Of a stretch of 64,000 nucleotides of DNA, positions 1 to 61,783 are shown piece by piece. This DNA comes from Gracilaria domingensis. Taxonomy: Eukaryota > Rhodophyta > Florideophyceae > Gracilariales > Gracilariaceae. The notes under the pieces are model-generated. The model had not been told where the DNA came from and ran no database searches. It saw only the letters and a list, made by a program, of their open reading frames with translations. Location: assembly GCA_022539475.1 (NCBI GenBank), contig VCMS01000104.1:62001-126000 (forward strand). The letters run 5' to 3'. Both the position numbers and the translations under genes were made by a program. Each line of letters opens with the position of its first letter. Within the stretch, counting starts at the first letter, position 1.

Positions 1-3000
1 CAGGGTTGCCGCTCATAGCGTCCCAAACACGCACAGTCTTGTCCCGCGAGCCTGATACAACGCGAGTGGCGTCCGCGCTCATCGCGACGCACAGCACTGC
101 ACTGGTGTGACCTTGTAGAAGCTGTGCGGAGACGTGTCCGCTGTGAAAGTGCAACACACAAACCGTATTATCGAGTGAGCCTGACACGATGAAAGTGCCG
201 TCGTCATTCACTGCCACGCCCGTGACTCCATCAGTGTGGCCTTGGATAGGCCGCCCGACAGGGTTGCTGCTCTCAGCGTCCCAAACACGCACAGTTCCGT
301 CCCTGGAGCCTGTTACAATACGAGAAGCGTCTGCGCTCACCTCGACGCACCGTACCCCACTGGCGTGACCTTGCAGTGGCTGCCCGACAGTGTTGCCACT
401 AAGAGTGTCCCACAATTGAATGGATCCGTCATTCATCTCACACGCCAGCACAGCTCCATCCGCACAAAAGCTCACATATCTTAGATGATTTGCGCAATCG
501 TGTGCAACAACTTGCTCGCCAATTCCGCTGTGCCTGTTCGACACAGAAATGCATCCACCTTCATGTGCCGTTATCACCCTGCATTGATCGGGTAGGAACG
601 AAGCACACTCGAGTGACATAATTGGCGTAACATGCCCTTTGACCGCTTCGTATTTGTAAACTTTGTTCAATGTGTTAAACCTCCCGCAATGTTTTCTAAA
701 TCCCCATATGTCTGCCGAAAAGATCCAGATAGAATCGGTTTCTACACGCATGCAAAATGCTCCATCAAATTGAACGTTGATAACTTCTACTGCACCAGTA
801 CCTGCCTGTTGCAACAAGCCTTCAGACGCTTTCAGCCATGGCTTCGGCGCACACCTTTCCATCCTCTGCACAAAATCCTTCGTCAATTCGTTCTGCGTCG
901 CATGCCGCAGCAGCCTTCCATGCACTTGAAACCAACCCTCCTCCGTGCGGCGGTTCTTGATTACAAATGACATACTCAGCCCGGCTGCACGGCCGACCAC
1001 TTCCAGATGTTCCTTGTGATGAGAGGGTTGCGAAGAGCTATCACTACATATTGCTATGCCATGATCCAGATCTTGCTGAACAACGAGGCTTCCGCTTTCG
1101 ACTAGTCGTTTCACAATCCAATGCGGTTGCGATAGTAACCACAAGAGCTGATCAGCATACCCTGCGTTTCGAAGTATTCTGCAAACGTTGTTGTGTATGT
1201 ACCCATCATCCTCGGCATCCCACCACGGGTGACTCAAGCCCGAACTAAGAGTACCATGCTTAGTCTCCGGCTTTATGTCTTCTTTTACCTCTTTCTTGGA
1301 TTCTAACTGGGATTTTGGAGTGTGCTCTGCGTGGTCCTCGGTGATTTTAGCGTGTTGCTGTCCAATCCATGAATCATCTCTCTCACTTTCGCTACAGCGC
1401 AAGCGCTTATGAACCTGAGCTTGATGTATCTTTTTGATTCCTGATTCCTGCGTCCTTTTGCGAGCCCCTGACTTGAGCGCTTCATTTTTGGGTTGAGGAG
1501 AACCCTGCAAAATGCTCCTTACTGGTACAAATGCCTTACCTCGCACATCCCTGTGATCCGATGACATATAATTGCGCACAAGGGTTTGAAAGAAAGCTCT
1601 TGTTTCTCTTGCCTCCATGGCTTGGCGAGCAGAGATATCCAGGATCAAGTCGTGCAATTGTACCAATATTGAACCACCGACTCTCCTCATTTGCACAACT
1701 GAAACGTCCGCAAACGATTCCACAATACTTCTGGTTTCTTGTGTCGTACTCAAGTCCCACAGTTTTTGCAGCATCGACAAAGGCACAGGTTGCTGCTTTT
1801 GGAGCACACACAGAGCACGAAACCAGTACCCAAACTTTCCATGCCCATTTCGTCTCTCAAGAACTTCAAGCGACAAACCCACAATCTTTGGTAATGCACC
1901 GTACGCTTCAGCTTTCGCTTTCATCAGGTCTTTCTGTTGCAAACGAAGGTCTTCGTAAAAATCTGACCATGCGTTTTCCCTTGGGCAGCTTGTAAATGAG
2001 TATCGTCTTACTGATCCACCCACAATGCCCAATCCAAGTGGAAGTCCTTGGCACATGGTGAGAAAATAAATGAACGCGTCCTTGTTCTTCCGATCAAGTA
2101 CAGTAGTTCGCTCAAACCCCGCGTGTGCCATAAGCATTTGCTGCGACAGGTCTCCAAGTGCTTCTTTCTCCTTGAAGTCAATCACTTCATTCGCCCGCAC
2201 CAGAAAATGGTTATCTCTGGTTGTGTATACCATTCTACTTTTCGTGTTCAACATGAGCCCAAGAGTCGTCAAGATGTCAGAATCTATTCCATTCTCATGC
2301 CAAATATCATCTACAAGAAACAGGCATGAATGTGGTTCAAACCATTTCGAGGCTTTCTGGGATGCTTTTTGAACAGACTTGGATGTCCGAATCACATTTG
2401 CTAACCTCGAACCTCCGGAGCAATCGACAATGTTTGCTATTTCTTCGATAACAGTCGGCAAGGCTGCATTGTTTCCAAGCTGAATGTAAAGAAGGCCTCC
2501 AGTAAACAATCGTTTGATCTCAATGTCTTCGGCAAGTCCTTTCAAAGCGCACGTCTTACCAACTCCACCCTTCCCGGTAGCTACAACGGCAACAATTCGG
2601 CTCTCTCTTGCGCTCAGAACTGCGGCCTTTAACCGTCCCTCGCATGTAGTTGATGAACTATAGTTCAGAGTTAATCTGGGCGGATTTGGAGGCACCATGT
2701 TGCATGAAGTGTACGCATCTTGTTGTGAACTTGAATCACTTACCATTGCATTACCACTGTCTACTATCTGAGGTCTGTCGATCCCGAGTCGCTCTAAAAT
2801 GCTGCTGGCAATAATTTGAAGAAAAGAATCTCTGGTGCGAAGCATGTTTGGGCTGTCGGAGTTATTCGCTCCGCTGTTATTTTCGATGCTCCACACTGTG
2901 GCTGCCGTATGGAGTGCATGTTTAACATCTTCTAACGGTATCGTGCCGTCTAATGCGCGTTGAAACAGCCCCAGTTGATGAAAGAGATCTCCATAGTCTT

Positions 3001-3382
3001 TGAAAATTGCCGTATTGCGACACTGGCGGGTGGTAAAGCGGTACAAGATAGGGATAAGCAATGGTGGAGTCTGCTTGTCAGCCATAGCGCGGTCATAGCG
3101 ACGTACGAATGCCAACAGTTCACGCATGGGCCAGTGTTTGGCCACAAACTCGGGACTCAGGATAAACACGCCCACGGGGGCGGTTTGCATGGCGTGTTCC
3201 ATGACTTGGGGGCAATCATCGCCGAGGCGGAAAGACTCGTTATCGAGAAAAACGGAGAGACCGTGGTTGCGCAGCCTCTTACACAACGGTCGCGCGATAG
3301 TTTCTTTGTCTTCGCCAGCATGACTGAGGAAGATTCGAAACTGTGGTTCCTGGGGAGAAGAGGCGTTGCGCGACGTAGACAT
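1..3382 (-). CDS. TIR / NB-ARC / WD40 STAND protein, 3' end beyond window
   Basis: The frame is open from the ATG at 3382 to the left edge, 1127 codons with no stop, so the gene is partial. An in-frame TGA lies a few codons upstream of the ATG, which fixes the start. The N-terminal TIR domain (about residues 15-125) shows RIFLSHAGEDK, GLSVFLDNESFRLGD and a WPMREL segment whose Glu matches the catalytic Glu of NAD-cleaving TIR domains. The NB-ARC/STAND ATPase follows: Walker A GKGGVGKT near 270-277, Walker B LVDDIW at 356-361, the sensor segment MVYTTRD, and GLPL near 446. A charged, Lys-rich linker covers about 620-760. WD40 repeats begin near 915 and continue to the edge. Such proteins act as oligomerising receptors in immunity or self/non-self recognition. 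The domain calls are from motifs; the role in this alga is inferred. Confidence 0.9.
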   Translation of the reverse strand, partial: MSTSRNASSPQEPQFRIFLSHAGEDKETIARPLCKRLRNHGLSVFLDNESFRLGDDCPQVMEHAMQTAPVGVFILSPEFVAKHWPMRELLAFVRRYDRAMADKQTPPLLIPILYRFTTRQCRNTAIFKDYGDLFHQLGLFQRALDGTIPLEDVKHALHTAATVWSIENNSGANNSDSPNMLRTRDSFLQIIASSILERLGIDRPQIVDSGNAMVSDSSSQQDAYTSCNMVPPNPPRLTLNYSSSTTCEGRLKAAVLSARESRIVAVVATGKGGVGKTCALKGLAEDIEIKRLFTGGLLYIQLGNNAALPTVIEEIANIVDCSGGSRLANVIRTSKSVQKASQKASKWFEPHSCLFLVDDIWHENGIDSDILTTLGLMLNTKSRMVYTTRDNHFLVRANEVIDFKEKEALGDLSQQMLMAHAGFERTTVLDRKNKDAFIYFLTMCQGLPLGLGIVGGSVRRYSFTSCPRENAWSDFYEDLRLQQKDLMKAKAEAYGALPKIVGLSLEVLERRNGHGKFGYWFRALCVLQKQQPVPLSMLQKLWDLSTTQETRSIVESFADVSVVQMRRVGGSILVQLHDLILDISARQAMEARETRAFFQTLVRNYMSSDHRDVRGKAFVPVRSILQGSPQPKNEALKSGARKRTQESGIKKIHQAQVHKRLRCSESERDDSWIGQQHAKITEDHAEHTPKSQLESKKEVKEDIKPETKHGTLSSGLSHPWWDAEDDGYIHNNVCRILRNAGYADQLLWLLSQPHWIVKRLVESGSLVVQQDLDHGIAICSDSSSQPSHHKEHLEVVGRAAGLSMSFVIKNRRTEEGWFQVHGRLLRHATQNELTKDFVQRMERCAPKPWLKASEGLLQQAGTGAVEVINVQFDGAFCMRVETDSIWIFSADIWGFRKHCGRFNTLNKVYKYEAVKGHVTPIMSLECASFLPDQCRVITAHEGGCISVSNRHSGIGEQVVAHDCANHLRYVSFCADGAVLACEMNDGSIQLWDTLSGNTVGQPLQGHASGVRCVEVSADASRIVTGSRDGTVRVWDAESSNPVGRPIQGHTDGVTGVAVNDDGTFIVSGSLDNTVCVLHFHSGHVSAQLLQGHTSAVLCVAMSADATRVVSGSRDKTVRVWDAMSGNP

Positions 3383-28432: not shown

Positions 28433-30349
28433 TTATTGCTTGGCCGTCACGCGTTGGCGCAGCAATTCATTCTCGCTGCGCAGATTGGCCTCTTTCTCTC
28501 TCAGCTCAGCCTCTCTCAACTTGTGCTGTCGAATCTCAGCGCGAATGCCGTCCATAATATCTTTCTTTCGCGCGTTGGAACGAGCGGCAGCCTGACGGTT
28601 CTTCTTACGTCTTTCTTCAGCTTTTCGAGCCTTTTCCATTGCCTCCAGCCTCGCGGCAAGAACGGCCTCATTGCCCGCAAAGGCGCCAATCTGCCAGATG
28701 AAGCCATCCGTCACGCTCATACCCGCAGGTCGCGGTGCCAACGGTTTGGGCTTCAAGGTTGGTTGCGACGCAGCAAGCGGTCTCGGTTTCTTGGCTATCT
28801 GCGGCTGGAGGCACTGTTTCCGCTTGGGTGGGTTGGGCGGACTCGGAAGGTCGTTTTCGGGATCGATCATCTCAATAACGTCTTCGACGCAAGGAACACT
28901 ATCGGGCAAGGGAGCAACATCGGATCCAGCATTGGACAAAGTAGAGGAAACGGAACGAGAGTCCTGGTCGCTCGCAATATATGAGCACCAATCGTCCTCA
29001 AAGTCCATGCCGTGCAAGCACGTCTCGATGCCAGCCGGCAAAGTGCTGGGATCGGCAGGCAGCATGGGCTGCTCCATGAGCGGTTCGGAAATGGGAACAG
29101 CGGGCGGGACGAGGAAGTGATCGGCAACTTCGAGATGGCCGGGCTCGAAGAATGGGAAGGTGGGAGGGGAGCCATGCAGAGGTTGCGGACTTGAATGTGG
29201 AGCAAGTGGGGAGGTTTTGGGACTCGCCAAAAGAGAAATCTCGGGGGACAGCTTTGGCGGGGAGGGAGACAACAAGGGTGTACGCTGCGGCGAAGCCATA
29301 GTGTCTAAGCAAGAGGAGGTGTGCGGCGGGACGGAGGCAAATGCAGTTTGCTGAGGATGAAAGGAAGAGTGCGAGGCGTTGTGATGGCGATACAGTTGCA
29401 GTTGTTCGTAGGCCTTATGATCTTCGTCAAAGTTTGCAATCGGGGCTGGAATGCTGGTGGAAGCTGAAACCTTTTCCATGATGGCGAGGCGTTTCATTTG
29501 GGTGGCAAGAAGGTTGTCTATAGAAGGGTTGTACGAGCTGAAGACGTCCATACAAGCATCAAAGGGGGCACTATTGGAGGATTGCAGGTTGCTGCCGACT
29601 ACAGTGACACGAACTTTACCTTGCCAGGAGGCGGAGCCCTCGTTCATGACGCGCCACACGGCCTGCGACAAACCGGTGAGATTGGAGAGCAGCGGAGAGG
29701 GCAACGAGGGCGCACAGGCGCAGGCGCGGCGCGGGGAGGAGCGGCAGTTGGAGCAGAAGCGCCACTCACGGTCGTGGCACTGGAACAAGACGCTGCCCTT
29801 GATGTCGCCCGTCTCGAACAGATCGGAGGAGCAGGTGAGGCAGATGCGCTCGCGCAGCACGTCGTGCATGACGCGCACGTACTGCAGGCGGGTGACGCGG
29901 TCGCGGTCGTTGCGCGTAATGATGCACCACTCTCCGGTGGCGTTGTGTCGCACGTAGCGCCCCACGCGCACGTCGGCCATGACGGCCGGGGCGTGCAGCG
30001 GGTGCGTCCTGGCGGTGTACGTGGTGACGACGAGTCCGCCCGAGAAGCCGGCGCGCTCGGAGAAGAGCGGGATTCCCAGGTAGTGCATGGCGATCTTGCC
30101 GTTGACGGCGCCGCGCTGCTCCTCGTCGGTGGAGAGTATAAAGGAGGGGCGCGACGTGGTGAGCAGGTGGATGTCGGCGGGGGCGCGCGGCGGGCGCAGC
30201 ATAAAGTCGGCGATGAGGCGCTCGCGCTTCAAGAGCGCGAGCGCCTTGTGCAGGTCGTCGCCCAGCGCATCGGAGGCGCGCGCGAGCGGCGGCGGCGGCG
30301 TCGGCGTCGTCGGCGTCGGCGGCGACGGGGACGGCAACGGGGGAGGCAT
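28433..30349 (-). CDS. bZIP transcription factor with a long N-terminal region
   Basis: Encodes 638 aa. The C-terminal 70 residues are a bZIP domain: basic region KKNRQAAARSNARKK (the Asn and Arg contacts are present), then a leucine-zipper-like coiled coil (heptads through LREAELREKEANLRSENELL). The central part (about 300-560) is Pro/Ser-rich with SP motifs, and PPKRKQ and KKPRP could act as nuclear localisation signals. The N-terminal 250 residues are a separate, more ordered region with Cys pairs (ICLTCSSDLF, FCSNCRSSPRRACAC), which could hold a metal. I do not recognise that part. It is divergent from the glycosyltransferase gene over a 477-bp GC island. Nuclear DNA binding is inferred from the bZIP domain. 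Confidence 0.85.
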   Translation of the reverse strand: MPPPLPSPSPPTPTTPTPPPPLARASDALGDDLHKALALLKRERLIADFMLRPPRAPADIHLLTTSRPSFILSTDEEQRGAVNGKIAMHYLGIPLFSERAGFSGGLVVTTYTARTHPLHAPAVMADVRVGRYVRHNATGEWCIITRNDRDRVTRLQYVRVMHDVLRERICLTCSSDLFETGDIKGSVLFQCHDREWRFCSNCRSSPRRACACAPSLPSPLLSNLTGLSQAVWRVMNEGSASWQGKVRVTVVGSNLQSSNSAPFDACMDVFSSYNPSIDNLLATQMKRLAIMEKVSASTSIPAPIANFDEDHKAYEQLQLYRHHNASHSSFHPQQTAFASVPPHTSSCLDTMASPQRTPLLSPSPPKLSPEISLLASPKTSPLAPHSSPQPLHGSPPTFPFFEPGHLEVADHFLVPPAVPISEPLMEQPMLPADPSTLPAGIETCLHGMDFEDDWCSYIASDQDSRSVSSTLSNAGSDVAPLPDSVPCVEDVIEMIDPENDLPSPPNPPKRKQCLQPQIAKKPRPLAASQPTLKPKPLAPRPAGMSVTDGFIWQIGAFAGNEAVLAARLEAMEKARKAEERRKKNRQAAARSNARKKDIMDGIRAEIRQHKLREAELREKEANLRSENELLRQRVTAKQ

Positions 30350-30826
30350 GTAGCGGGCGGGGCGGCGGTATGAGCAGCTGGGGGGGTGGGGTAAGGCGCG
30401 GCAAAAGGGGGGGGCTCAGGCTGGCGGCGGTGTAGCGGCGGCGGCGACGGGCGCGACGGCGGACGGAGTGGGGGGCCGACACGGCGGGCGGCGCGGCGCT
30501 GTCCGCCGGCGCGCCGTTTGTGGCGAAGGCTCTCAGTGGCGCGCGTGGCGCGCGGCGCGCGCGGCGCGCGGCGCACTGGCGGCGCGCGCCGGCGCGCGCC
30601 GGCACGCGCGGCGCTTGCGCGGCGCTTGCACGCGCCGCGCACACGCGCGCGCGCGCCAAGTGGCGCGCGCGCAGTGGGCGCCGTCTGACAGCGCGCGCGG
30701 CGCGGCGCGGCGCGGCGCGGCGCGCGTGTCGGCCGCCGGCCGCGGCGGCGGCGCGCGGCGCCTGAGGGCGCGCGCGCGCGGCGCGGCGGCGCTGCGGGGC
30801 GGCGACGGCGCGCGGCGGCTTGCAGC
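30350..30826. promoter_or_regulatory. Divergent GC island, bZIP / glycosyltransferase
   Basis: 477 bp of GCGC-rich DNA between two divergent starts, with a G run at about 30408-30415 (poly-C for the bZIP transcript). No TATA box is visible. This is presumably a bidirectional promoter. Confidence 0.5.
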
Positions 30827-32767
30827 ATGCTGCGCGCGCGCTTGCGCAACAGGATGAAGGGCGTGGCGTCGCGCTCGCGCGCGCTCTCCGCCGCCGCGTC
30901 GGCCGCGGCGCGCCGCCCGGCGTGGCTGGCCGCGCTGCTGGCCGCCGCGCTGCTGCTGGCGCTGGCGCGCGCGTCGCAGGCGCGCGGCCGCGTGAGCTTC
31001 GTGCCGCCGGCCGCGCCCACCGTCGTGCTCACCGAGCCGGCGCGCCGCAGCGACCGGCTGCTCTTCGCCGCCGTGCTGGTGCTGGCCGATCGCTCCAACT
31101 TCTCGCGCACGGCCGCCACCGTGCGCGCGCTGCTCGCGCCCGCGCGCGACGCCAACCTCTCCGTGGGCGTGTACCACTTCTCGGCGCCGTCGGCCGACGC
31201 GCTGCGCGCGCTGCCCGTCGCGCACCGCCTGCACCGCTCCGCGGGCCCGTACGACGACGCGCTGCTGCCGCTGCGCACGCGCGGCGCGCTGCTGCTGCGC
31301 GCCGGCGTGCGCCTGCCGCCGCACGCGTTTGCGCACCTGCGCCGCATGCTGGACAGGCACGCGCACCGCCCCGACGTGGCCGCCATTTCGCTGCGCGCCG
31401 CGCCGCCGCGCGTCAAGAAGAGCGCGTCCGCGCCGGACCACGAGCCGGCGTCGTGGAGGCAGCTGCCCGTCGAGGCGCCGTTCTTGTCGCCGCTGCTGTA
31501 CGGCGACGCGCTGGACGCGTTTCTGCCGCTCTCGTCCGAAATCACCGACACCATCACCCACTTTGACGAGTGGCTGCGCCTGCGCCGGTCCGACTGGTAC
31601 CGCTACCCGACGGGGCCCGGCATTGACGGCACCGCGCTCAGCATGGGCGACGTGGCTGCCGCCGGCTGGACGCGCGCGCCCTGGAACGTGTGGTTCTCCA
31701 AGTTTCTCAGCGAGTATCACTTGTTTGTGCTGAACGCGCCGCCGCCGGAGCCGTCGCATTCGCAGTCGCAGTCGCAGTCGCAGTCGCAGTCGGCGTCAAA
31801 CGGCACGCTTGCCGCGTACGACGCGAGTGGGGCGGCCGTGCCGCCCGCGCGCTTCGGGTCGGCCGTGAGGGAGCTGGGCCAGCGGGCGCGCGAGCAGGGC
31901 GGCGTGCTGTCGTTCACGCTGGTGAACCACATCTTCCTGCCCACCGCGCGCTCGTGGCTCTGCAACGTGGACGTGGCGCGCTTCCGGCCGCGCGGTCTTG
32001 TGTGGGCGGCGACGGACGCGAAGACGCAGCGCGAGCTGTCGGCTGTGGAGGGCAGTGCTACCGTGTTGTTGGATGACGTGCAGGGCGGAAAGGACACCGG
32101 TCACGAGTTTGGAAACCCGGGCTATTGGCGGCTGATGCTGGAGCGCACGCAGCTGATTGGGGAGCTTCTCGCAAACGGTATTTCGGTGTTTGCTTTCGAG
32201 ACCGACGCCACCTGGCTGGAGGACCCGCAGCCGTGGATTGACGCGCTGGTGCAGCAGAAGGCGGACATTGTGGGCACGATCAACACGAGGATGGAGGTGT
32301 CGGGCAACTTTTTCTTCCTGCGGGCGACGCTGGCCACGCGCAGGCTGTGGTTTGAGATTGTGAGCGAGTTTGAAAAGGCGTACGCGCAGGGGCGCTTTGA
32401 GCGCAAGAAGGCGGACTCTTGGACGTACATTGAGAACGATCAGTCGCTGCTGACCAAGCTGGTGCTGCGGAACGAGACGTGGCGGCGCAGCTACCCGCTG
32501 TCGTTCCTGACGCTGGACATGGAGAAGTTTGTGGACGGGCGGTGGTACACGATGGACGGGGGGGTGTACACGAGCAAGCGGTCGCGGAGTCCGGTGGTGA
32601 TCAACAACAACTTTGTGATCGGGGTGGCGGAGAAGACGGCGCGCGCCAAGAAGTGGGGGCACTGGTTCTGGGACGAGGAGAACGAGCGCTGCCTGGAGCA
32701 GGTGGTGAAGAAGGCGGTGCGCGCGGAGGGGCGCGGCGGCGCGCGCGGCGCGGGGGAGCGAGCGTGA
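30827..32767 (+). CDS. Type II membrane glycosyltransferase (Nucleotid_trans / GT77-like)
   Basis: Encodes 646 aa. A short basic cytosolic tail, one membrane anchor at about 31-50 (WLAALLAAALLLALA), then a lumenal part, as in Golgi enzymes. The C-terminal half (about 350-630) fits the nucleotide-diphospho-sugar transferase family PF03407: LVNHIFLPTARSWLCNVD, LVWAATDAKTQRE, and FETDATWLEDP, where Glu-Thr-Asp stands for the metal-binding DxD. FFFLRAT, ENDQSLLT and the C-terminal NNNFVIG also fit. The N-terminal half (about 75-300) resembles a second, degenerate GT-A domain, joined by an SQ-repeat linker near 306-316. It may act on cell-wall polysaccharide or protein glycans; donor and acceptor are unknown. 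GC-saturated codon use. Confidence 0.75.
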   Translation: MLRARLRNRMKGVASRSRALSAAASAAARRPAWLAALLAAALLLALARASQARGRVSFVPPAAPTVVLTEPARRSDRLLFAAVLVLADRSNFSRTAATVRALLAPARDANLSVGVYHFSAPSADALRALPVAHRLHRSAGPYDDALLPLRTRGALLLRAGVRLPPHAFAHLRRMLDRHAHRPDVAAISLRAAPPRVKKSASAPDHEPASWRQLPVEAPFLSPLLYGDALDAFLPLSSEITDTITHFDEWLRLRRSDWYRYPTGPGIDGTALSMGDVAAAGWTRAPWNVWFSKFLSEYHLFVLNAPPPEPSHSQSQSQSQSQSASNGTLAAYDASGAAVPPARFGSAVRELGQRAREQGGVLSFTLVNHIFLPTARSWLCNVDVARFRPRGLVWAATDAKTQRELSAVEGSATVLLDDVQGGKDTGHEFGNPGYWRLMLERTQLIGELLANGISVFAFETDATWLEDPQPWIDALVQQKADIVGTINTRMEVSGNFFFLRATLATRRLWFEIVSEFEKAYAQGRFERKKADSWTYIENDQSLLTKLVLRNETWRRSYPLSFLTLDMEKFVDGRWYTMDGGVYTSKRSRSPVVINNNFVIGVAEKTARAKKWGHWFWDEENERCLEQVVKKAVRAEGRGGARGAGERA

Positions 32768-33176
32768 GGGGTGCGCGATGGGCGCGTCTGGGCGGCCATC
32801 TGGTGGCGCGTGATTGGGCGCGCGCGCGCGCGGACGAGGTTTCGGGCGCGTGCAAGCCGGCTGCGCCGCGGCGGCGGCGCGCGCGGCGGGCGGAAGAAGG
32901 TAACAAGAAGCGCGCGCGCGCGCGCGGCGGCGGCGCGCTCCACGCGCGCCCAAGCCAATGGGCGCCGGCGGCGTGTCACGTGCGCGCGCGCGCGCGCGCG
33001 GCGCGGCGGCGCGGCGGCGGCGGCGGCGGCGGGAGGCGTGGCGGCGGCTTGGGCGCATGCGCGCGCGCGCAGCGGGGCTAGGGCTAACGCACGCGACGCT
33101 ACATGCACACTGCGGCTTTTACGCAATTTGGACGGCTAGATACGCTAGTACAACAAGACAAGAACGGCGTGTACCA
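32768..33176. other. GC-saturated 3' spacer
   Basis: Convergent spacer between the glycosyltransferase and the small bZIP gene. It has long alternating CG runs (about 32818-32831, 32910-32925 and 32984-33001) with Z-DNA potential. No gene seen. Confidence 0.45.
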
Positions 33177-33626
33177 TCAAGTGCTAGCAGACATGGTCTT
33201 CTTGAGCGAGTGGTTCTCCTGGCGCAGGCGGCGCTCCCGCACCCGCAGGCGCGACGCGTGCCGCGACAGCAGCTCCAGCTCCTGCTTGAGCCGCTCCAGC
33301 CGCAGCTTGCGCTTGAAGTTGCTGCGCTGCGCCGACTCGCGGTTGCGCGCCTTGCGCAGCTCGATCTTGCGGCGCCGCGCGTCGCACTCCGAGAGCGACG
33401 CGTCCGCCGACGACGACGAGCTGCTGCACGGCGGCGCCGGCGCCAGCTTGGGCAGCAGCCGCACGCCGTGCGGCGCCCGCCCGCTGCGCGCGCGCAGCGG
33501 CGCCACCACGTGCGCCGCGCGCGGCGGCGCGCCGCCCGGCGGCGCCCCGCTCTCGTCCAGCAGCAGCTGCTTCACGGCAATGCGCCCGCACGACGACGAC
33601 GACGACGAGGGCGGCGCGGCCTGCAT
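33177..33626 (-). CDS. Small bZIP transcription factor
   Basis: Encodes 149 aa from the ATG at 33626. The frame continues upstream only through translated low-complexity DNA. The basic region RKIELRKARNRESAQRSNFK (N-x7-R core NRESAQRSN) is followed by a zipper with LERLKQELELL and later RLRQENHSL. This is the layout of short bZIP factors, with little besides the DNA-binding and dimerisation parts. An Ser run and an Ala/Pro-rich stretch precede it. Its promoter carries a full CRE (TGACGTCA) 300 bp upstream of the ATG, so self-regulation or control by the larger bZIP factor 5 kb away is possible (inference). Confidence 0.88.
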   Translation of the reverse strand: MQAAPPSSSSSSCGRIAVKQLLLDESGAPPGGAPPRAAHVVAPLRARSGRAPHGVRLLPKLAPAPPCSSSSSSADASLSECDARRRKIELRKARNRESAQRSNFKRKLRLERLKQELELLSRHASRLRVRERRLRQENHSLKKTMSAST

Positions 33627-33888
33627 GGCGCCCAACCCACCACAACCAAACACGGCGCGAAGGCGGCGGCGCGGCGGCGGCGGCGGAGCGCGCGGAAACG
33701 CTCTCCCTCCCTCTCTCTCTCTCTCTCTCCCGACCAAAACGTGAACGGCGACGCGACGACGCGGTCACGGCGCGCACATCGGGACAGGCGGAGGGGAGCG
33801 CGCGCGCGCGGGGGAAGGCGGTGTTGCGGGCGCGCGCGGCGGAAAGGGGCGAGCGCCGCCAGCGCGGGCGGCGCGCGCGCCACGGGCC

Positions 33889-33966
33889 ACTTTTTATGGA
33901 CGCGCGGCGCGGCGCGGCGCTCGCCGTGACGTCAGCGCGTCTGTCAAAAAAGCGCGCCGCGCTTTT
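33889..33966 (-). promoter_or_regulatory. CRE site, TATA-like box and palindrome upstream of the small bZIP gene
   Basis: On the minus strand a CCATAAAAAG box (33889-33898) lies about 30 bp downstream of a perfect CRE, TGACGTCA (33927-33934). A 19-nt palindrome AAAAGCGCG-C-CGCGCTTTT follows at 33948-33966. The CRE is the canonical target of CREB/ATF/TGA-type bZIP proteins. The spacing between box and CRE is that of a core promoter. The palindrome sits at the 3' end of the GRDP-like gene (stop at 33988). Confidence 0.5.
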
Positions 33967-33987
33967 CTCCACCGGCGCGCGCACGCG

Positions 33988-35661: not shown

Positions 35662-37501
35662 GATGGCGAAGACGCGGCGGCGCGTGGCGTGGCGTCGCGT
35701 CGCGCGGGCTGCGGCTGCGGCTGCGGCTGCGGCGCGGCAGGTGGCGGCGCGCGCAGACGGAGGCAGGTGGTAACGGAACGGCGGCAAGCATCGCTTTGTT
35801 GCCCCCGGCGCGTCGCACCAATCATGCCGTTTTGCGTGCTGTACGCACGTGCCTGCGACTGGCTCCAAAATCATCACAATCTCGCAGCCGCGACGCGGCC
35901 TTGTTGCGATCTTCGCATTGGCAAGGTCATGCATCTTAGAATGAATAAACGATCAACGCCACTTGTTTTGGTCTCTTGAGAATCGCTGCTGTCCTCCTCA
36001 TGTCCTTCGTTCGTTCATATCCTGCTATCTGCGGCTATGATTCCAATTGGCCCCCAAACCCTTCCATCTTGGCGAAAGACCGGAGTCAATAATTATGCGC
36101 AGAAAACACACAAGTCGTTTGTTTGCCAAGTCCTCTTCTACTGCACTTCGTTTCCTCCTTGTTTTCCCGGAGAACAAGGAGAAGAAGAAGCAGAAGAAAC
36201 GCTCGCATCCGTTTGGCAAATCTCGAATATTGTACTACTAAATCTTTTCTTAAACTCTTCTTTCTTCTTAAATTGTTGTTTGCAGGAGCTTGGCTTTGAG
36301 ACCTGAATCTCCTCACGCACATAACGGAGCACAGCGCGATGGGTTGCTGACCCGCAACGGCGCTCCCTACATGCTCGACGCATGGCTACCTCTAATTCTA
36401 CAGATGCTTTCGTCATAAACAATCTTATGCCAGCGCAGAAATGGAACACATACATTCCTTTTGGCTCCAACTTAGCCCGCAGTTGAGTGTTTCCTTTCGT
36501 TGTAGTCTCATTGTCAAGCTGAAACACACTGCTCCAATATATATGAACCCGCACAGAATCTATCAGCAACATTAAACGCAGCCAGAGTTGTGCGGGAAGA
36601 CTGTCGCTCGCAGACGGCCATAGATATGGTATTTCTGACAGACTACTTTTGCAAAGTAGAAAGTCAAAAGTCATGGAATTTCGCTCCAAGTCAGTCAGAA
36701 GTAGTCATGAAATAGTCACTACGAATTTAGGTAATAGGACCGAACGAAAGTAGACCCAAACGTTGTTAGAAGACTGAGACTATTGTTTCAATCACCATCT
36801 TTCAAACAACATTCTTAAACAATTACAATACAAAACGCAGCTGCTTTCATAGGTGTCATTGCTTCTCTTTTTAGCATTCTATAAAAATTGCCATTTAGGG
36901 ATACTGATAGGTTGTCGAGGAAAGTGTTGAATACGAACAACGAACAGCACTTTACTCTAATGAAGAGCATAAACGCCGTCGACTTCGTAGCTGCCGCCTC
37001 AGTATCCATTATTGGCATCATGATTTCTCTAGTGATGCTATGCTTTGAGCCTTGAGTGCTCGAGAAGATCAGCTCACGGCGTATTTGGCGCCCTGAGACG
37101 ATCAAAAAGTGGATCCCAAGAGCTTATGACTAATCTGACTAGACTACATCGATATTTCTGTAGTCAGTCAGTCAGGAATACGGGCTTGGCCATATCATGA
37201 AAATCTGAGCTCATTGACCCGTTTATGAAACAGCGATTAATCTATTTGGCGAGAATTAATATGTCAAGCTGTTACGCAGAAAAACATCCTTAACTTCCAA
37301 CCAACGGTATGCTGTGCTCTGGTTCTAATTACGAAATACCACACCAGTCTCCTGGAGCGTTTATCTATTTCTCTGCAAAGCTTGCGTAAGATCGTCTAAC
37401 GGATTCGCAGCGTGCAACTTGGTTACAAGCCCTCGTTTTCCTCGCGAATTTGCCGAGCTTTGGAGAACGAGAACCTGAACCAGGAACGGAAAAAAATTTA
37501 A
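35662..37501. other. 1.8-kb spacer left of the transposon
   Basis: GRDP-like promoter on the left, then AT-richer DNA. An ORF of 183 codons on the minus strand (36138-36689) has no motif I recognise. Small hairpins are present: CTACTTT-TGC-AAAGTAG near 36641, and TGACTAGACTACA against TGTAGTC-AGTCA at about 37136-37174. I see no further gene. Confidence 0.4.
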
Positions 37502-42963: not shown

Positions 42964-45001
42964 GACGAAGGAAGGGGGGTAGTTGTTGCTGGAGCTACCT
43001 TCGCAATTTGCGCAAGTTGGAGACAAGCTGTGAGTCGCGAAAGCTGATGCGGAACGGACGGAGGGTTTTGCCTTTTTAAGTATGTGACAGCTCGTGCAGG
43101 CTGTTGTTGTATGTGGCGGGGATATTGCTCAGCAACCACATGGTGTTTACCAAGATGGGCGCGCATGTGCAAATTGAGAGCTCTACTGTACTGGGGGGGA
43201 CGAGTATGTAACGATGGCGACAGCAAGGCCTCACTCCTTGTGATCGAGCTCATAGCGCTGGGAGCGCAGGAGACATGGCATGGAGCACGTACATGTAGAT
43301 ACAGGATGTCGGAGAATTTGCGAGTAATGGAGGGGTGTGGTTTACACTTTGCTCGAGTGGAGGGCGCCTTGCGTGAGTTTGGACCCCGCGGATGAGGCAC
43401 AAAGGGAGAGCGGCCTTTCGCGTTGGGTACAGTTCATAGTTACAGAGAGCGAGCGCCATGTGTTCAACGAGGCGATCAAGATATATCTATCTAGTCACCT
43501 TTAAAGATGACGACAGCACTCTGTGATGCACCCCGAAGGGTACATAAACTCCAAAGCACGCAGCACGGCAGGCCTGTCGCCGTTTAAACGCGACGCGCGG
43601 CGCAGCGGAACAACAGCAGCGAACAACGAAGTGTGGCGTGCGCCCGACGGGCTGGTGACGCGTTCCCACGCGTGATTAATGTTGGCTTACATGCGCCGCG
43701 GCGTGGTCGCCCTTCTGACGAGTGTTCGCACGCAACTGCGTTGTTGCGCGCAGCGCTGTGTGGCTAACGTGACGTAACGGGCTGTGCGTTGCTGCCCAGC
43801 TTGTTGCCCGCGGGCGGTTTCATACGTCACCGCTGCAGTGGCTCATCGTCCCGTCGTGCTGACATCGGCACCTTACAGAGCGCTTTCGGGTTGAATGCTG
43901 CTGACGGCGCAGAAGAAGAGCCGAAAATTTAAAGTTTACAGCCGTCTATGGATACACAGATAGAAAGTGCATATCTTTTATGTAGGAGGAGGTTCAATAA
44001 AGCAGGTTTATTGCAGTCGTGCAATCAGGTTGTGATTCAAACGTGGGCAAAGCATTGTTTCTGTCGAACACCATTAGCAAATGCTTCAACAAAACGCACA
44101 GCTCGAGGTGATTACGTTCCGGCCCATCGTGGCCCATTATGTGCTGTCAGTCAGGTACCTGATACTCTCGTACGTGGTCAAATATCATAAACATATCGAG
44201 AGGCGGGGAGAGAGTCCGACACACCAAAACGAGATGTCTTTCGTCGCGCTTGCTATTCGCGCCATGGGGGCCCAGTGGCGAGAGATCTACTCCTCTTCTG
44301 CTATACACTGCGCATTAGTGCTGAAGTACCAAAGGTAGACTGCTGCTGTGGTTCTCTCTGCCACACATGCCTGCTAACATAACTGCCAGGGCTTTGAGGT
44401 ATGTAAGAGGAATATCTCTCAGCGCGATACTCCTCTTGCCTACCTGCATTATCTGGCCCGCCATCCTGTCGTGCCCTGGCGCAGTATCACACCAGCGTTG
44501 TGCATATTGCTGATTCACCATTATTCTCTATCGTACGCAAAGTCATGTCCAGCCTCTTCACACATGGTTGCTAATGAAGTTATGAGGGTTGTGAGGCATA
44601 ATCCTCTTGCCTCGAGCAAGGGTGACTGGTCGCCACCCCGTTGTGTCGGTTTGGAAAGACATATCATACGTACGATGTACCAACGGTAGATATCATATCG
44701 ATTGCGCTGTGTTGAAGATCGGCTGTTTTGCGCAAGATGCTCATCCTGGCGAGAAGTGAATTCTCACGCGTGCGCCACGTGTGACATGTGGATACATCCT
44801 TTGTAATGCTGCAAGTCAATGCGCTTTGGCGCGTTGCCTTCTGTTTCGCCAGTGCCGTCATTGCGATTTCGCGCCAAAATTTGCGGCACCGCAACTTCGC
44901 ATGCCAAACACATCTGCACCGGCTGTCCACATCGCCTCCCGCACAAGTCCGCGCAACCGCCTTCCCCGCACGCCGCGAACCACCTTCCACAACCAGCCGT
45001 C
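42964..45001. other. 2-kb spacer, divergent between secreted protein and CAF-1 p60
   Basis: No gene recognised. It contains the promoters of both flanking genes and two copies of the TACC-N3-GGTA motif (44327-44337 and 44678-44688). The frame of CAF-1 p60 is open upstream to 44819, but the extra 61 residues precede the conserved MHAKAIEI start. Confidence 0.4.
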
Positions 45002-47296
45002 ATGCACGCAAAGGCAATCGAAATCGCGTGGCATGAGGACTCATCCATCTGGTCGCTTCACCTTTCTTCTGCCAATCGGCTCGTCACAGCCGGAGGCGAC
45101 AAGGTAGCGCGAGTGTGGAAGCTTCATGACAACCCTCATACTTTCTTTAACAGCGCCAATAACATTATTCAACCCTCTCCAGCTACTACAACCCAGCCTT
45201 TAGTGGACTGGCTCTGCGACCTGAGGGCGCATACAACCACCGTCAACGTTGCGCGGTTTACGCACGATGGATTTACGATTGCAACAGGTGCTGACCAGGG
45301 TGAAATCGTTCTTTGGAGATTGGATACTCAGCATGCAAATGAGCCGCTTGGCATGATGGATAATGGAAAGGAAAGATGGGCGCGATACGCAACTCTTCGC
45401 GCACACGTGCAGGATGTGCTCGACTTGGCATGGTCCAGAGACGGCACCAGACTTGTTTCGGCAAGCGTTGACAATGCCATCATGATATGGGATGTGAAAA
45501 ACCCATCCAAGTCTCCAGTTACGCTTCGCAACCACGCTAACTTTGTTCAAGGAGTATCAATAGATCCATTTTCCCGTCTCATTGCATCTTTGGGCAACGA
45601 TCGAACAATGCGTGTTTTCACTTCTTCCAATGCGACCAATTGGTATCAGGTGGCTTATCTTTCGAACGTGTACGATACAAAACTGTTTATGGATGACGCT
45701 CGTTTTAAGAACTGTTTCCGACGATTAGGGTGGTCACCCGATGGAAGCGTTGTTGCGTGTCCTTCAGGAGTGCACCTTCCCGCCACTAAGCGCCAATTCG
45801 CAGTTCACGTGTTCGCTCGAAATCAATGGATGCAACCTGCTGCCCAATGTGGCGGTCTTATCAAGCCAGCCGTTGCTGTGAGATTCAGCCCCATCCTCTA
45901 TGAACTTCGATACTATCCTCAACCTTCAACAGAGAACCAGAGCGAGCCCTCAAGCCGTCCGTTTGCAAAGTTCACATACCGAATGGTGTTCGCCGTTCTC
46001 TGCGTAGACCAGGTTCTCTTCTACGATACGCAAAACTTCCAGCGACCGTTTGCGAGTGTGAAGGGTCTTCACGTGGCTGAAAATACAGATCTGACGTGGA
46101 GCGGCGATGGTCGAACTGTAGCTGTCAGTTCCGCAGACGGATATGTTGCATTGATATGCTTCACAGCTGAAGAACTCGGGCAAAAACTGTCAATACAGAA
46201 CACACCACCATGGCTGTATAAACACGAAGATATATCCCCCGCCACACGGTCTCCGTCGAAGACAGCACATCCAACCACTGTGACGGTGGTTCGCCCACTG
46301 CCTTCGCGCGCTTTGGAAAAGGCCTCGATGAAGACCGCCAGCTCGCCTGAAACCTCTAGTGCTCCCTTGGGGCTTTCGTCTACCGCTGGAGTGCAGAGTT
46401 CTGCGCACCCAAAACCATTAGTGCCAACGGTGAGTCCGCCTCAATTACCTCGTGAACCTGCATCGATTGCTACAAAGAGTACAACGACTGCCCAGGGTTA
46501 CAGAATTGGTCTGGCTAACCCTGCTGAAAATATCTTACGATGTCCAAAGAGTGTCGCCGATACTCCTGTTGTCGACCTAACGAGTCTACCGGACGAAGAC
46601 CCGTCTCGCAAGCAACCCTCGAAAGAAGCTGCAGAGAATGAGAGCCGATGCAGACCAACTCCCGAACACCAGCCTTCAAAAACCAGTGCTGACCCTGTTA
46701 AGCAACCAACCTGTTCTACACCAACCATGTCCGCACGAGACCTGGAATTGCAAGAGAGCTCGAAGGACATCAAACCATCGATCGAGGCCGAGGTGTGCGT
46801 TACCCAAAGCATAAAGGAAGGGTGCACCACGCCTTCGACTGGAGATTTCAAAGAACAGCCAAAAGCACTAGCAGATGCAACAGAAGACAAAACTGTTCGC
46901 ACCATTATTGTGGATAACGCAGACAAAGAGATAAGCGCAGATCCGGAGAGCGCTGTGAGGGTTGTAAACAGGAACAAATCAGCGTATCGGGGGACATCAC
47001 CACAGGCATCTAAGCGTCGGCTGAAGACAAAGCAAGTGCAAACAACCCTTCGAGGATTCCAAACTCCAAACTCAACAACTAACGTACCAAAACCGAAGCT
47101 CGCTAATGAGGGTGCTAATAATACTGGCGTTACGGGCCCTATGGCCCTCGACCTAAAAAGGATGAGATCAGAGCGGCCTGACCAAAACTCCGCAACGACT
47201 TCGCCATCGGATGCGAACATCGACTTGACTATCGATGAAAAAGAACAACGGAAACGTCGGAAGCTGAATCCTGCAGAGGTTGTGGAGATATCGTAG
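45002..47296 (+). CDS. CHAF1B: Chromatin assembly factor 1 subunit p60 (FAS2/Cac2)
   Basis: Encodes 764 aa. CAF-1 deposits H3-H4 on newly copied DNA through PCNA. The start MHAKAIEIAWHEDSSIWSLH is the conserved p60 N-terminus. Seven WD40 blades span about residues 1-420, for example RLVTAGGDKVARVWKL, TIATGADQGEIVLWRLD, RLVSASVDNAIMIWDV, LIASLGNDRTMRVF, VVACPSGVHLP and VAVSSADGYVALICF. The C-terminal 340 residues are Ser/Thr/Pro-rich and disordered, with QTTLRGFQ at about 680, which looks like a PCNA-interacting peptide. KRRLKTK and KRRKLN near the end could act as nuclear signals. Single exon. It is convergent with the PPR gene, 100 bp apart. Confidence 0.92.
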   Translation: MHAKAIEIAWHEDSSIWSLHLSSANRLVTAGGDKVARVWKLHDNPHTFFNSANNIIQPSPATTTQPLVDWLCDLRAHTTTVNVARFTHDGFTIATGADQGEIVLWRLDTQHANEPLGMMDNGKERWARYATLRAHVQDVLDLAWSRDGTRLVSASVDNAIMIWDVKNPSKSPVTLRNHANFVQGVSIDPFSRLIASLGNDRTMRVFTSSNATNWYQVAYLSNVYDTKLFMDDARFKNCFRRLGWSPDGSVVACPSGVHLPATKRQFAVHVFARNQWMQPAAQCGGLIKPAVAVRFSPILYELRYYPQPSTENQSEPSSRPFAKFTYRMVFAVLCVDQVLFYDTQNFQRPFASVKGLHVAENTDLTWSGDGRTVAVSSADGYVALICFTAEELGQKLSIQNTPPWLYKHEDISPATRSPSKTAHPTTVTVVRPLPSRALEKASMKTASSPETSSAPLGLSSTAGVQSSAHPKPLVPTVSPPQLPREPASIATKSTTTAQGYRIGLANPAENILRCPKSVADTPVVDLTSLPDEDPSRKQPSKEAAENESRCRPTPEHQPSKTSADPVKQPTCSTPTMSARDLELQESSKDIKPSIEAEVCVTQSIKEGCTTPSTGDFKEQPKALADATEDKTVRTIIVDNADKEISADPESAVRVVNRNKSAYRGTSPQASKRRLKTKQVQTTLRGFQTPNSTTNVPKPKLANEGANNTGVTGPMALDLKRMRSERPDQNSATTSPSDANIDLTIDEKEQRKRRKLNPAEVVEIS

Positions 47297-57210: not shown

Positions 57211-58689
57211 TCACTCCTTTGGATTCTGAACCGTGTTTGGATGTGTAGTCGAGTCCAAAACCCTGTCTAAGTTGAGTTCGATCGACTCTGATAACCGTCT
57301 AAGCACCGCCACGTCCTCATCCATTAACGTCCGTAATGATCGCCACTTGAACTTTCGATCATTCTTTCTCTTCGACCCTTCATCTAGCTCTGCATCGTCC
57401 AAATCTTCCTGTAATGCCTGTTTAAGCTCTTTCACACCGGGTACGGGTGATCTATCGAACAAAGCAGCATATATATCACCGTTCTCGGGCGCTGTTTCTA
57501 AAGACTTGATTCGCTGTAGCCAGTTGTTGAACCCAGTCGTTTTATCCTTCTGATGCCATAACACTGTACGTTTCTTGAAAACTGTGGGTGATTTAGCCAC
57601 TCCTGTCTCCAAGTGTGAGTAATTCGTCCTTTTCCACCGAAGCCACACTTTTTCCCTTTGCAACAACGATTGAACGAAGTGTTTTAAGCGATTGCCGTCG
57701 TCCTTCTCCAGAAGTGCCAAAACACGATGCTTTAGCTGTTCTCCACTGCCGTTCCTCCCGAATAGTTTGCCGCAGAAATCGGCATTCTGCCGCACAGCAT
57801 GGGTATCCTTTTCTCCAATTGGCAGGGAACCAGTTGTCTCAAGGTGGTGAAGAAATATAGCGTATTGAACGAGCATGTGTCGACGAAAGTGAGTGTCGGC
57901 GAGCTGCAAGTTGAGAACATTAGGTGAGGTTGGATAATCCACGCCATGAGGCACAGTGTCACTTCTTACTGCTGTACTTTCGAAAGCCGATATGACAGTG
58001 TCAAGTGAGCTGGCAGCCTCTTTCCACAATCTCTCTGTTTCAGCAATTGAAGGATTCTGAAGAAACTTTTGCAAACCCCATAGCGCATTGTATAAAGCGG
58101 CATCCACATTGCTTTCCGGAAGCGGGTCGTATGCGATTGGATGTATTGCATACGCACCTCGGCGATTCATACCCGATGGATGCCACGCACGTAACGATTC
58201 AGCTAACATTAGGCGTAGACGACCAGACCTGATTGCGTTGAGCCCGTGTGTGTCACGTTCTATAGCTGACTGAAACAGCTTAATGAAGTACAACTGTCGA
58301 CGAGGTGTGCGGGGTAGTGCAGTGATTCGTTTGCGAACAGCATCCAGGTTTGCGACGATATCGTCGAGGGTGATGAACGAAAAGAGATAATGAAGGTACG
58401 TGACTGGTGCATGTTGATCTAGACGTTCCTTCAGCGATAGACTTGTCGCAATGTCTACCACATGCAACGCATCAAACGGAGATGGTGATTTAAGTTGCTT
58501 GGTGAGGAGAAGAAGTAATGTTGGATAGAAGTTAAATCTGGGGAATTTTTCGATTAGCTCCTCGGTAAGAACATCAGGCGGGGCTTTGAGTTTTTCACAT
58601 AGGAGTTTGTTTAAAGCATCCTTCGCTTGCAAGTATTCTTCAACAGGATTCGGCTTGGAATCAGGTTCATTTGCTGTAGACATCGCCAT
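57211..58689 (-). CDS. THOC1: THO complex subunit 1 (THOC1/HPR1)
   Basis: Encodes 492 aa. THOC1 is part of the THO/TREX complex that couples transcription to mRNA packaging and export. The family's core segment is clear: SPNVLNLQLADTHFRRHMLVQYAIFLHHLE (near residue 250), then the VWLRWKRTNY segment and an acidic/basic tail. N-terminal helices (FPRFNFYPTLLLLLTKQL) also fit. No death domain (present in animal THOC1) is visible. It begins with two adjacent Met codons (MAMST), either of which could be used. Single exon. Confidence 0.85.
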   Translation of the reverse strand: MAMSTANEPDSKPNPVEEYLQAKDALNKLLCEKLKAPPDVLTEELIEKFPRFNFYPTLLLLLTKQLKSPSPFDALHVVDIATSLSLKERLDQHAPVTYLHYLFSFITLDDIVANLDAVRKRITALPRTPRRQLYFIKLFQSAIERDTHGLNAIRSGRLRLMLAESLRAWHPSGMNRRGAYAIHPIAYDPLPESNVDAALYNALWGLQKFLQNPSIAETERLWKEAASSLDTVISAFESTAVRSDTVPHGVDYPTSPNVLNLQLADTHFRRHMLVQYAIFLHHLETTGSLPIGEKDTHAVRQNADFCGKLFGRNGSGEQLKHRVLALLEKDDGNRLKHFVQSLLQREKVWLRWKRTNYSHLETGVAKSPTVFKKRTVLWHQKDKTTGFNNWLQRIKSLETAPENGDIYAALFDRSPVPGVKELKQALQEDLDDAELDEGSKRKNDRKFKWRSLRTLMDEDVAVLRRLSESIELNLDRVLDSTTHPNTVQNPKE

Positions 58690-60413: not shown

Positions 60414-60850
60414 CTTGGGGCGTGGTTCGGGCGCAAATGGGGCCCCGCAACGACTAGAATCAACGAATGTCGTGCGTGTGTGTGTGTGTGCCGCCGTTGT
60501 CCAGAGGCAACCCTCTGTCGTTCAACGAGTTGATGCTCGGCGATGCGCAGGGCTCGCAATTCGGAGCAATCAAAAAACGCTGCCGCGAGTTGACTCGGCG
60601 ACGCCAATGTGCCGATTTCCTATGCGGCGTCCTGCTACCAACGGATGCTTTTGGAGAGCGTGATCGCTGTGAAATATCTGGAAAAAGTATAAAAATGAAT
60701 CTTGTGCGCTTTTACCCTCGACGAATCTTGAGCCATCGGAGATCATGAATCTTGCGGGGTTTCTGCGCGCAGCGATATGTATTGCTCCACCACCCGCAGC
60801 CGTCTCCGCCCCGGCCGCGCGCGTCGCCGCCATCCCCCACTCCACCTACA
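60414..60850 (+). promoter_or_regulatory. Divergent promoter SPC22/23 / phycobilisome linker, with TATA box
   Basis: 437 bp between the two starts. A TATAAAAA box at 60689-60696 points to the linker gene, 155 bp upstream of its ATG. A (GT)n run lies at about 60478-60490. The leader before the linker ATG is C-rich. The position of the box suggests a transcript start near 60720. Confidence 0.6.
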
Positions 60851-61783
60851 ATGGCCTTCGTCAATCCCGTGCTCTCCAGCTTCACTGGCAGGCCTCTGGC
60901 CCGTTCTTCCTCAACATGCGCCCTCCCGCGCGCGCGCGCCGTTCCCGCGCGCGCCGTTCGAATGGCCTTCTCGTCCATTGACGATCCCTCCACCGCGGTC
61001 ACGTTGAAGGACACTGCCCTGCAGTCCAAGCAGAACGTTCTTTCCGCCGTATACAAGCATGTGTTTGGCAACTCGTACGTCATGGAGGAAGAGCGAGCCG
61101 AGCTGGCGACCGCCGACAGCGACTTTTTGTTGGGCAAACTTTCCACGCGTCAGCTCGTGCGCGCCATTGGAAAGAGTGCGCTGTACAAGAAGCGCTTCTT
61201 TGAACGCTCGGGGCCGTATCGCTTTATCGAACTCAACTACAAGCATTTTCTCGGACGCGCCCCGGAGAGTCAGGAGGAGATTTCGTTCCATGTGCAAACG
61301 TTGGTCAATGAGGGGTACGACGCCGAGATTGACACGTACTTTGATTGCGGAGAATACGAAGAGCGATTTGGAGATGAGGGAGTGCCAAGATTCATCTTCA
61401 AGGGAACGTATCAACGAAATGACAGCTTCAATAGGATGACCATTCTTCGTAAGAACTGGGACGGCTGCTCTACAAGTACTGTGTCTGGTTCGACCGCGCC
61501 TGCAAAGGCGATCGCGGCACAATTGATCATGGGGCACGGTGGCTACGTCAACGGTTTTGTCGGAATCTGCAAGGGCTTACCGGCAGGCTTCCGCCCCGAG
61601 CCGCAGCCTAGAGCTCCAAATTCGCAGATCCCGTCCAACCCACAAGCGCCAGTGCGAATTCGTTACAAGATTGCGGAAAACCTGTATCAAGTGTATGAAA
61701 TCCCGGGCATGGAGCCTGTTTATGATCCCGAGTGGAAGAAGGAACGCATGGCAGTGAAGAGATGGAACGGCGCTTGGTATTAG
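60851..61783 (+). CDS. Phycobilisome rod linker polypeptide, plastid-targeted
   Basis: Encodes 310 aa from the ATG at 60851 (the frame opens at 60752). Residues 1-38, MAFVNPVLSSFTGRPLARSS..., form a classic red-algal transit peptide, with processing likely before the second MAFSS. A phycobilisome linker domain follows (PF00427, about 55-190): ADSDFLLGKLSTRQLVRAIGKS, YKKRFFERSGPYRFIELNYKHFLGRAPESQEEI and YDAEIDTYFDCGEYEERFGDEGVPRF. The C-terminal 100 residues have no recognisable CpcD domain. It joins phycoerythrin/phycocyanin discs into rods and tunes energy flow. Which rod position it takes cannot be told. It is the strongest marker that this is a phycobilisome-bearing eukaryote. Confidence 0.95.
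   Translation: MAFVNPVLSSFTGRPLARSSSTCALPRARAVPARAVRMAFSSIDDPSTAVTLKDTALQSKQNVLSAVYKHVFGNSYVMEEERAELATADSDFLLGKLSTRQLVRAIGKSALYKKRFFERSGPYRFIELNYKHFLGRAPESQEEISFHVQTLVNEGYDAEIDTYFDCGEYEERFGDEGVPRFIFKGTYQRNDSFNRMTILRKNWDGCSTSTVSGSTAPAKAIAAQLIMGHGGYVNGFVGICKGLPAGFRPEPQPRAPNSQIPSNPQAPVRIRYKIAENLYQVYEIPGMEPVYDPEWKKERMAVKRWNGAWY

Follow-up and report, generated by a model that had tools for sequence, protein, structure and literature searches.

Nucleotide-binding (NB) receptors that end in WD40 repeats form a described class in red algae. Chondrus crispus is reported to have 61 NB genes, 58 of which encode WD40 repeats and 23 of these 58 a TIR domain as well (PMC7145615), the TIR-NB-ARC-WD40 arrangement of this species also being described in PMC9806590, and NB-ARC plus WD40 genes are listed for Pyropia (PMC6928737). 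The fungal HNWD NLRs HET-D, HET-E and HET-R, as presented in passages of PMC12222747 and PMC4986451, combine an N-terminal TIR-related domain and a STAND NTPase with a WD40 sensor made of homogenized repeat units. Here we describe a TIR-NB-ARC-WD40 receptor gene from the red alga Gracilaria domingensis, located at the left end of a 64,000-nucleotide stretch of contig VCMS01000104.1 (C104:62001-126000; the whole stretch is called the window), together with its relatives in the 77.9 Mb, 680-contig assembly. An earlier interpretation of the window from its letters alone (the sequence-only reading) had proposed an immune-type STAND receptor and implied that its architecture was new. That novelty did not hold, since the architecture is already in print for Chondrus crispus, and the published Chondrus proteins place the receptor in a known class whose origin is already under study. 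The accompanying remark that WD40 ends are usual in fungal and bacterial STAND proteins can be widened, since the Chondrus and Pyropia reports show them to be usual in red algae too. The receptor itself is expected, and the pattern of variation in its WD40 sensor is the part worth following.

Encoded on the minus strand, the receptor gene has an open frame of 1127 codons from its ATG within the window and runs off the left window edge (Table 1). Extension of the contig to the left, as the sequence-only reading had proposed, gave a single intact, intronless frame of 1344 amino acids whose stop lies beyond the window (L009:3348-7382, L009 being the fetched piece C104:58001-66500). Pfam matches over the curated cut-offs confirmed the order TIR (TIR_2, E 6.1e-17), NB-ARC (E 1.3e-13) and WD40 (E 1.1e-34) in the part of the protein encoded in the window, with further WD40 matches in the C-terminal part beyond it; the search for an N-terminal TIR domain, on which the sequence-only reading had staked its claim, thus found one. 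The third canonical WD40 unit is cut by the window edge and a fourth, starting at amino acid 1134, lies outside. No leucine-rich repeat (LRR) occurred among the Pfam matches listed (best 25 of 46 and best 25 of 35), the C-terminus being formed by WD40 repeats, and Pfam placed a TIR domain rather than a CARD at the N-terminus. The nucleotide-binding motifs proved intact when read from the sequence, as had been claimed: in addition to Walker A, Walker B is LFLVDDIW (DD at amino acids 358-359), GLPL occupies amino acids 446-449, and the place of the MHD motif holds LHD (H577). The TIR glutamate that had been assigned to the place used by NAD-cleaving enzymes, E88, sits in HWPMREL and aligns with the same-motif glutamate of solved bacterial TIR chains, at the position that we take to be the catalytic one. 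An alignment of the 15 retrieved frames in which TIR and P-loop are still joined showed that this glutamate, the P-loop GVGK (Walker A GxxGVGK), DD.W (DDxW) and GLP are invariant. A catalytic role of this glutamate in TIR domains is described in PMC9806590. These domains and motifs are consistent with the immune-type STAND assignment, which we retain.

The WD40 part of the receptor family is built from 43-amino-acid units that resemble each other more within genes than between genes. For 30 clean units from nine TIR genes, unit DNA identity was 71% within genes (37 pairs) versus 65% between genes (398 pairs), a difference reached in none of 2000 label shuffles. Homogenized WD40 units have been described chiefly in fungi and bacteria (PMC12222747), and the units of the fungal HNWD receptors are given as 80 to 100% alike within a gene, more than most of the red-algal units here. 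The same source reports four codon positions of the fungal unit to be under diversifying selection, and the work on HET-D and HET-E uses seven positions (10, 11, 12, 14, 30, 32 and 39) with a high ratio of non-synonymous to synonymous change (dN/dS). The printed fungal unit has GH at 8-9, an offset of 7, so that the fungal seven correspond to positions 3, 4, 5, 7, 23, 25 and 32 of the unit as numbered here. The choice of positions therefore came from the fungal work, even though the entropies of our units had been seen before the set was known.

Variation in the red-algal units was concentrated at these positions. In 96 units from 26 frames, with 119 within-gene pairs from 10 TIR-group frames (including L010, which belongs to a broken gene), non-synonymous change was greatest at five codons, 23, 5, 4, 7 and 25, all among the fungal seven. 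None of 200,000 random seven-position sets drawn from positions 1-32 reached the observed sum, the true register was the best of the 43 circular shifts of the unit, and within single genes between 0 and 33 of 2000 random seven-position sets matched or exceeded the value observed. Two genes, L022 (L022:3232-7566) and L016 (L016:3210-4550), carry 42-amino-acid WD40 units that are nearly identical within the gene, pairwise differences being 11% and 7%, respectively, at core positions versus 66% and 60% at the seven hypervariable positions.

Per-gene comparison of dN at the seven positions with dS, for the 14 frames with four or more units, gave bootstrap 5% bounds above 1 in five genes. These were L016 (dN/dS 3.82, bound 1.84) and L022 (4.54, bound 3.13), which lack a TIR domain, and L032 (2.90, bound 1.60), L033 (4.82, bound 2.84) and L041 (2.58, bound 1.44), which have one; the same five are those in which the proportion of synonymous differences (pS) is below 0.3. 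Core WD40 positions had dN/dS of 0.27-0.36 in the five genes and 0.21 in the window receptor gene. Together, these data indicate diversifying selection at the seven positions in part of the family. No report of HET-D/E-like variation at the same residues in red algae was found in the passages of open-access literature covered, and those on Chondrus do not mention repeat variation. By published description, a comparison that does not include alignment, the Chondrus proteins are alike in coming from a red alga, in their domains and in a similar family size. Relative to the fungal receptors, whose diversification at these positions has a clear counterpart in five of the 14 genes, the Gracilaria receptor differs in its modules, having NB-ARC and TIR where HNWD proteins have NACHT and a HET effector.

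The TIR module is closest to bacterial TIR proteins. By sequence, its best seven solved matches are all bacterial, with BtTir first (7uxr, E 2.5e-15) and the NAD+ hydrolase AbTir among them (8g83, E 6.9e-13), followed more weakly by TLR1 (5e-5), L6 (1.6e-4), RUN1 (0.012), ROQ1 (0.018), RPP1 (0.023) and SARM1 (0.5-0.75). An AlphaFold model of amino acids 1-175 from a five-sequence input had a mean predicted local distance difference test (pLDDT) score of 67.7, block means of 72-84 over amino acids 11-110 and a predicted TM (pTM) score of 0.66. Foldseek with this model returned TIR structures, AbTir first (E 5.5e-8, TM 0.51/0.65, root mean square deviation 6.3). Among solved TIRs, AbTir and BtTir come nearest in sequence and rank near the top in fold, but unlike them the receptor TIR is fused to NB-ARC and WD40. 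The model supports the predicted TIR fold and nothing further. Among defense profiles, NCBIfam gave three TIR matches, all far below cut-offs, and PADLOC matched the TIR part ten times and the WD40 part once. The plant TIR-NLRs RPP1, ROQ1 and L6 and the TIR-NB-TPR proteins (TNPs) likewise have TIR and NB-ARC with a glutamate in the catalytic place, but they end in LRR or TPR, and the TIRs of L6, ROQ1 and RPP1 match the receptor more weakly than do those of bacteria.

The nearest solved relative of the NB-ARC part is APAF-1 (E 1.3e-9); next in PDB come 9h2l, an NB-ARC protein (8e-4), and RPP13-like protein 4 of plants (6j5t, 1e-3), which we take to be ZAR1. The stretch between NB-ARC and WD40 is conserved in an alignment of 12 members, and in nine of them a match to the APAF-1 helical domain has an E value of 1 or less (best 0.0013; the window member is under the cut-off, Table 1). 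The helical match alone would be insufficient, but the best NB-ARC match, the helical stretch and the order of NB-ARC, helical region and WD40 together point to an APAF-1-like build with TIR in the place of CARD. Receptor and APAF-1 differ in that N-terminal domain, in the weakness of the APAF1_C match and in the diversification of WD40 units in the receptor family. APAF1_C has been noted in red-algal NB-ARC proteins (PMC8891106). The bearing on receptor origins that the sequence-only reading had foreseen is mixed. According to Gao 2018, as cited in PMC9806590, Chondrus NB-ARCs form the sister group of plant NB-ARCs, which favors it, whereas Chondrus TIRs are described in PMC9806590 as not orthologous to those of TNPs, which does not.

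Profile searches of the assembly found a sizable receptor family, with counts that are rough, being lower bounds and possibly inflated by duplicated contigs such as C104/C494 and C394/C457, which gave equal scores in the NB-ARC and TIR_2 searches. There were 88 NB-ARC matches, partly clustered, 42 TIR_2 matches and one NACHT match. More than half of the TIR_2 matches (24 of 42) share an open frame with NB-ARC, and at least 12 of these 24 frames also have a WD40-type match; three others adjoin NB-ARC in another frame, and 15 have no NB-ARC match within 1.6 kb, one of which (L041, on C305) nevertheless has a P-loop and WD40 units in frame. A second receptor on the same contig as the window gene has TIR and NB-ARC in different frames (C104:8173-9476), and C494:17449-18752 is a near copy of it, from duplication or another haplotype. 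Four matched TIR-NB-ARC frames of 808 amino acids each, with equal TIR scores, lie at C28:271982-298307; three are spaced by 6,236 bases, as in a recent tandem array, and two of these four frames are followed, among the matches listed, by a WD40 match in a separate downstream frame of 417 amino acids.

Members of the family appear to have exchanged sequence. In DNA, L032 (C220) and L041 are 52-76% identical over the first six 60-codon blocks, which cover TIR, linker and P-loop (P-loop at column 291), versus 94-99% over the next six blocks and 73-95% in the remainder. This jump in identity just after the P-loop marks a mosaic gene pair, the simplest reading being that either L032 or L041 is a mosaic with its joint there. 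Effector modules may vary as well. Seven NB-ARC sister genes (L014, L015, L017, L022, L026, L029 and L030) have non-TIR N-termini of about 170-230 amino acids that look helical by eye. The N-termini of ten TIR-less sister genes gave weak Pfam matches only, to SesA (E 0.02, two genes) and MLKL_N (E 0.21, one gene), from which we claim no identity. The alga may use more than one effector type.

We propose, as the likely reading, that the gene encodes an intracellular STAND (NLR-type) recognition receptor with a diversifying WD40 propeller and a TIR NADase output. We infer ligand binding, oligomerization, NADase activity and an immune role by analogy with APAF-1, plant TIR-NLRs and fungal NLRs. 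In such a receptor, the WD40 propeller would keep the ADP-bound NB-ARC closed until binding of a ligand to the propeller's variable face released it, NB-ARC would then exchange ADP for ATP and oligomerize, and the TIRs so brought together would cleave NAD+, leading to a defense or cell-death output. Specificities within the family would evolve as WD40 units are homogenized, residues on the propeller face diversify under selection and paralogs exchange sequence. Indirect support for an immune role comes from another red alga, Pyropia, in which three of seven listed NB-ARC plus WD40 genes were induced 1.5-2.2 fold at both red-rot stages (PMC6928737).

Several observations weigh against this proposal. 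For non-synonymous change, position 32 is only 11th and position 3 only 17th among the 43. Nine of the 14 genes, with ratios of 0.09-1.33, are not clearly above 1; their pS of 0.44-0.81 suggests synonymous change close to or at saturation. The window receptor gene itself has a dN/dS of 1.12 at the seven positions (bootstrap 0.98-1.78, pS 0.49). In L032, L033 and L041, pS is raised at the seven codons (0.37-0.47 versus 0.14-0.21 in the core), as local hypermutation could also bring about. A preference for the seven positions is also seen in WD40 proteins from the same genome used as controls (WDR5, one other WD40 protein and the HIR1-like protein of the window; 7, 6 and 5 units, partly gapped), where variation is 1.25-1.5 fold higher than elsewhere in the unit; across the 14 receptors the corresponding excess is 1.6-8.3 fold, the window receptor gene having 2.6. 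The shared bias toward this face suggests that the bias alone is ordinary, whereas an excess over synonymous change is not. For the TIR output, the confidence of the structural model is moderate, a glutamate in the catalytic place does not prove activity, and a search for EDS1 as a downstream partner gave no match, from which no conclusion follows because control genomes gave none either.

The same sensor could serve purposes other than defense against microbes. Coalescence occurs in red algae, as does parasitism by other red algae, and the propeller might read self/non-self markers of other individuals and trigger rejection in coalescing thalli or against such parasites, a use suggested by the many paralogs (the 88 NB-ARC matches) and by the coincidence of the most variable positions with those of fungal allorecognition receptors, HET-D and HET-E reading HET-C. 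The same variability signature fits pathogen sensing equally, and the induction of three of seven listed Pyropia genes by at least 1.5-fold in red rot (PMC6928737) favors the latter, so that we regard an allorecognition role as doubtful. A second alternative concerns output rather than input: the TIR might act as an adaptor in an apoptosome-like complex, with no cleavage of NAD+. APAF-1, which the NB-ARC, helical region and WD40 resemble, is itself a scaffold, and the TIR of the animal receptor TLR1 matches ahead of plant TIRs; set against the invariance of the catalytic-place glutamate in all 15 frames and the seven bacterial TIRs, AbTir included, that head the solved matches, this leaves a purely scaffolding TIR distinctly unlikely.

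Two further explanations concern the state and the source of the gene. That the window gene is a decaying, functionless family member is suggested by its broken relatives on C104 and C494, by the reverse-transcriptase open reading frame (ORF) on its 3' side and by a variable-site dN/dS near 1, yet its frame is intact over 1344 codons, all motifs are kept and its core WD40 positions are conserved, which makes decay very unlikely. The lack of introns and the nearness of the TIR to bacterial TIRs might point instead to contaminating bacterial DNA or to a very recent gene transfer from bacteria. Contamination is refuted: the window, whose red-algal origin the sequence-only reading had only surmised, also holds a phycobilisome linker gene and eukaryotic genes (THOC1, CAF1B/HIR1-type, pentatricopeptide repeat (PPR) and CAF17-type; four of the ten ORFs in that scan had no match), which together mark a red-algal nuclear contig. 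Dozens of relatives lie on many contigs, and Chondrus has the same architecture. A single-protein scan of prokaryote genomes gave no close donor, an alignment scan of such genomes returned four loci at just 35-37% TIR identity, and a viral scan returned none. A bacterial origin in this sense is almost certainly wrong; old transfer of single domains is a separate possibility.

The surroundings of the gene offer some additional observations. The reverse-transcriptase ORF (L009:3-2750, RVT_1 E 3.4e-35) shares the strand of the receptor gene, lies about 600 bases beyond its 3' end and looks by eye like a non-LTR (long terminal repeat) element. Positions 30001-36000 of the window have 71-77% G+C and long overlapping open frames on both strands, compared with 45-70% G+C in the other 2-kb bins. 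Elsewhere in the assembly, contig C680 carries phycobiliproteins and linkers and is taken to be plastid.

Table 1. Positions in the window of the receptor gene, its parts and neighboring genes.
Feature	Position	Strand	Basis or remark
Receptor gene, 5' 1127 codons	2..3382	-	Stop at C104:61348, 653 bases left of window start
TIR domain, amino acids 17-117	3032..3334	-	Pfam TIR_2 and predicted fold matching TIR structures
E88, glutamate at NADase catalytic position	3119..3121	-	Alignments; invariant in 15/15 frames
NB-ARC domain, amino acids 258-504	1871..2611	-	Pfam
Walker A GKGGVGKT, amino acids 270-277	2552..2575	-	Read from sequence
APAF1_C (APAF-1 helical domain), weak match under cut-off	1034..1219	-	E 0.058 and 0.15
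Canonical 43-amino-acid WD40 units with hypervariable positions	2..370	-	Amino acids 1005-1047, 1048-1090, 1091 on
CAF1B/HIR1-type propeller gene	44819..47296		ORF scan
THOC1 gene	57211..58689		ORF scan
Phycobilisome linker polypeptide gene	60752..61783	+	Pfam E 5e-37; also C104:123022-123387 in assembly profile search; not part of receptor

The receptor gene adds one genome to a known class of red-algal receptors, and the repeat pattern weighs more than the gene, since it points to residues that may contact ligand. Variation of the sensor at the positions used by fungal receptors makes a recognition role testable and gives a direct route to asking what seaweeds recognize. We give roughly even chances to a broader proposal, that red algae hold a large repertoire of receptors whose WD40 sensors evolve as in fungal heterokaryon-incompatibility receptors, through units that become alike and pass between genes while a small fixed set of codons diversifies, with a TIR NADase output and other N-termini in sister genes. 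If this is true, two lineages with different NTPase and effector modules would have reached the same recognition surface, in seaweeds for the recognition of self and non-self or of pathogens.

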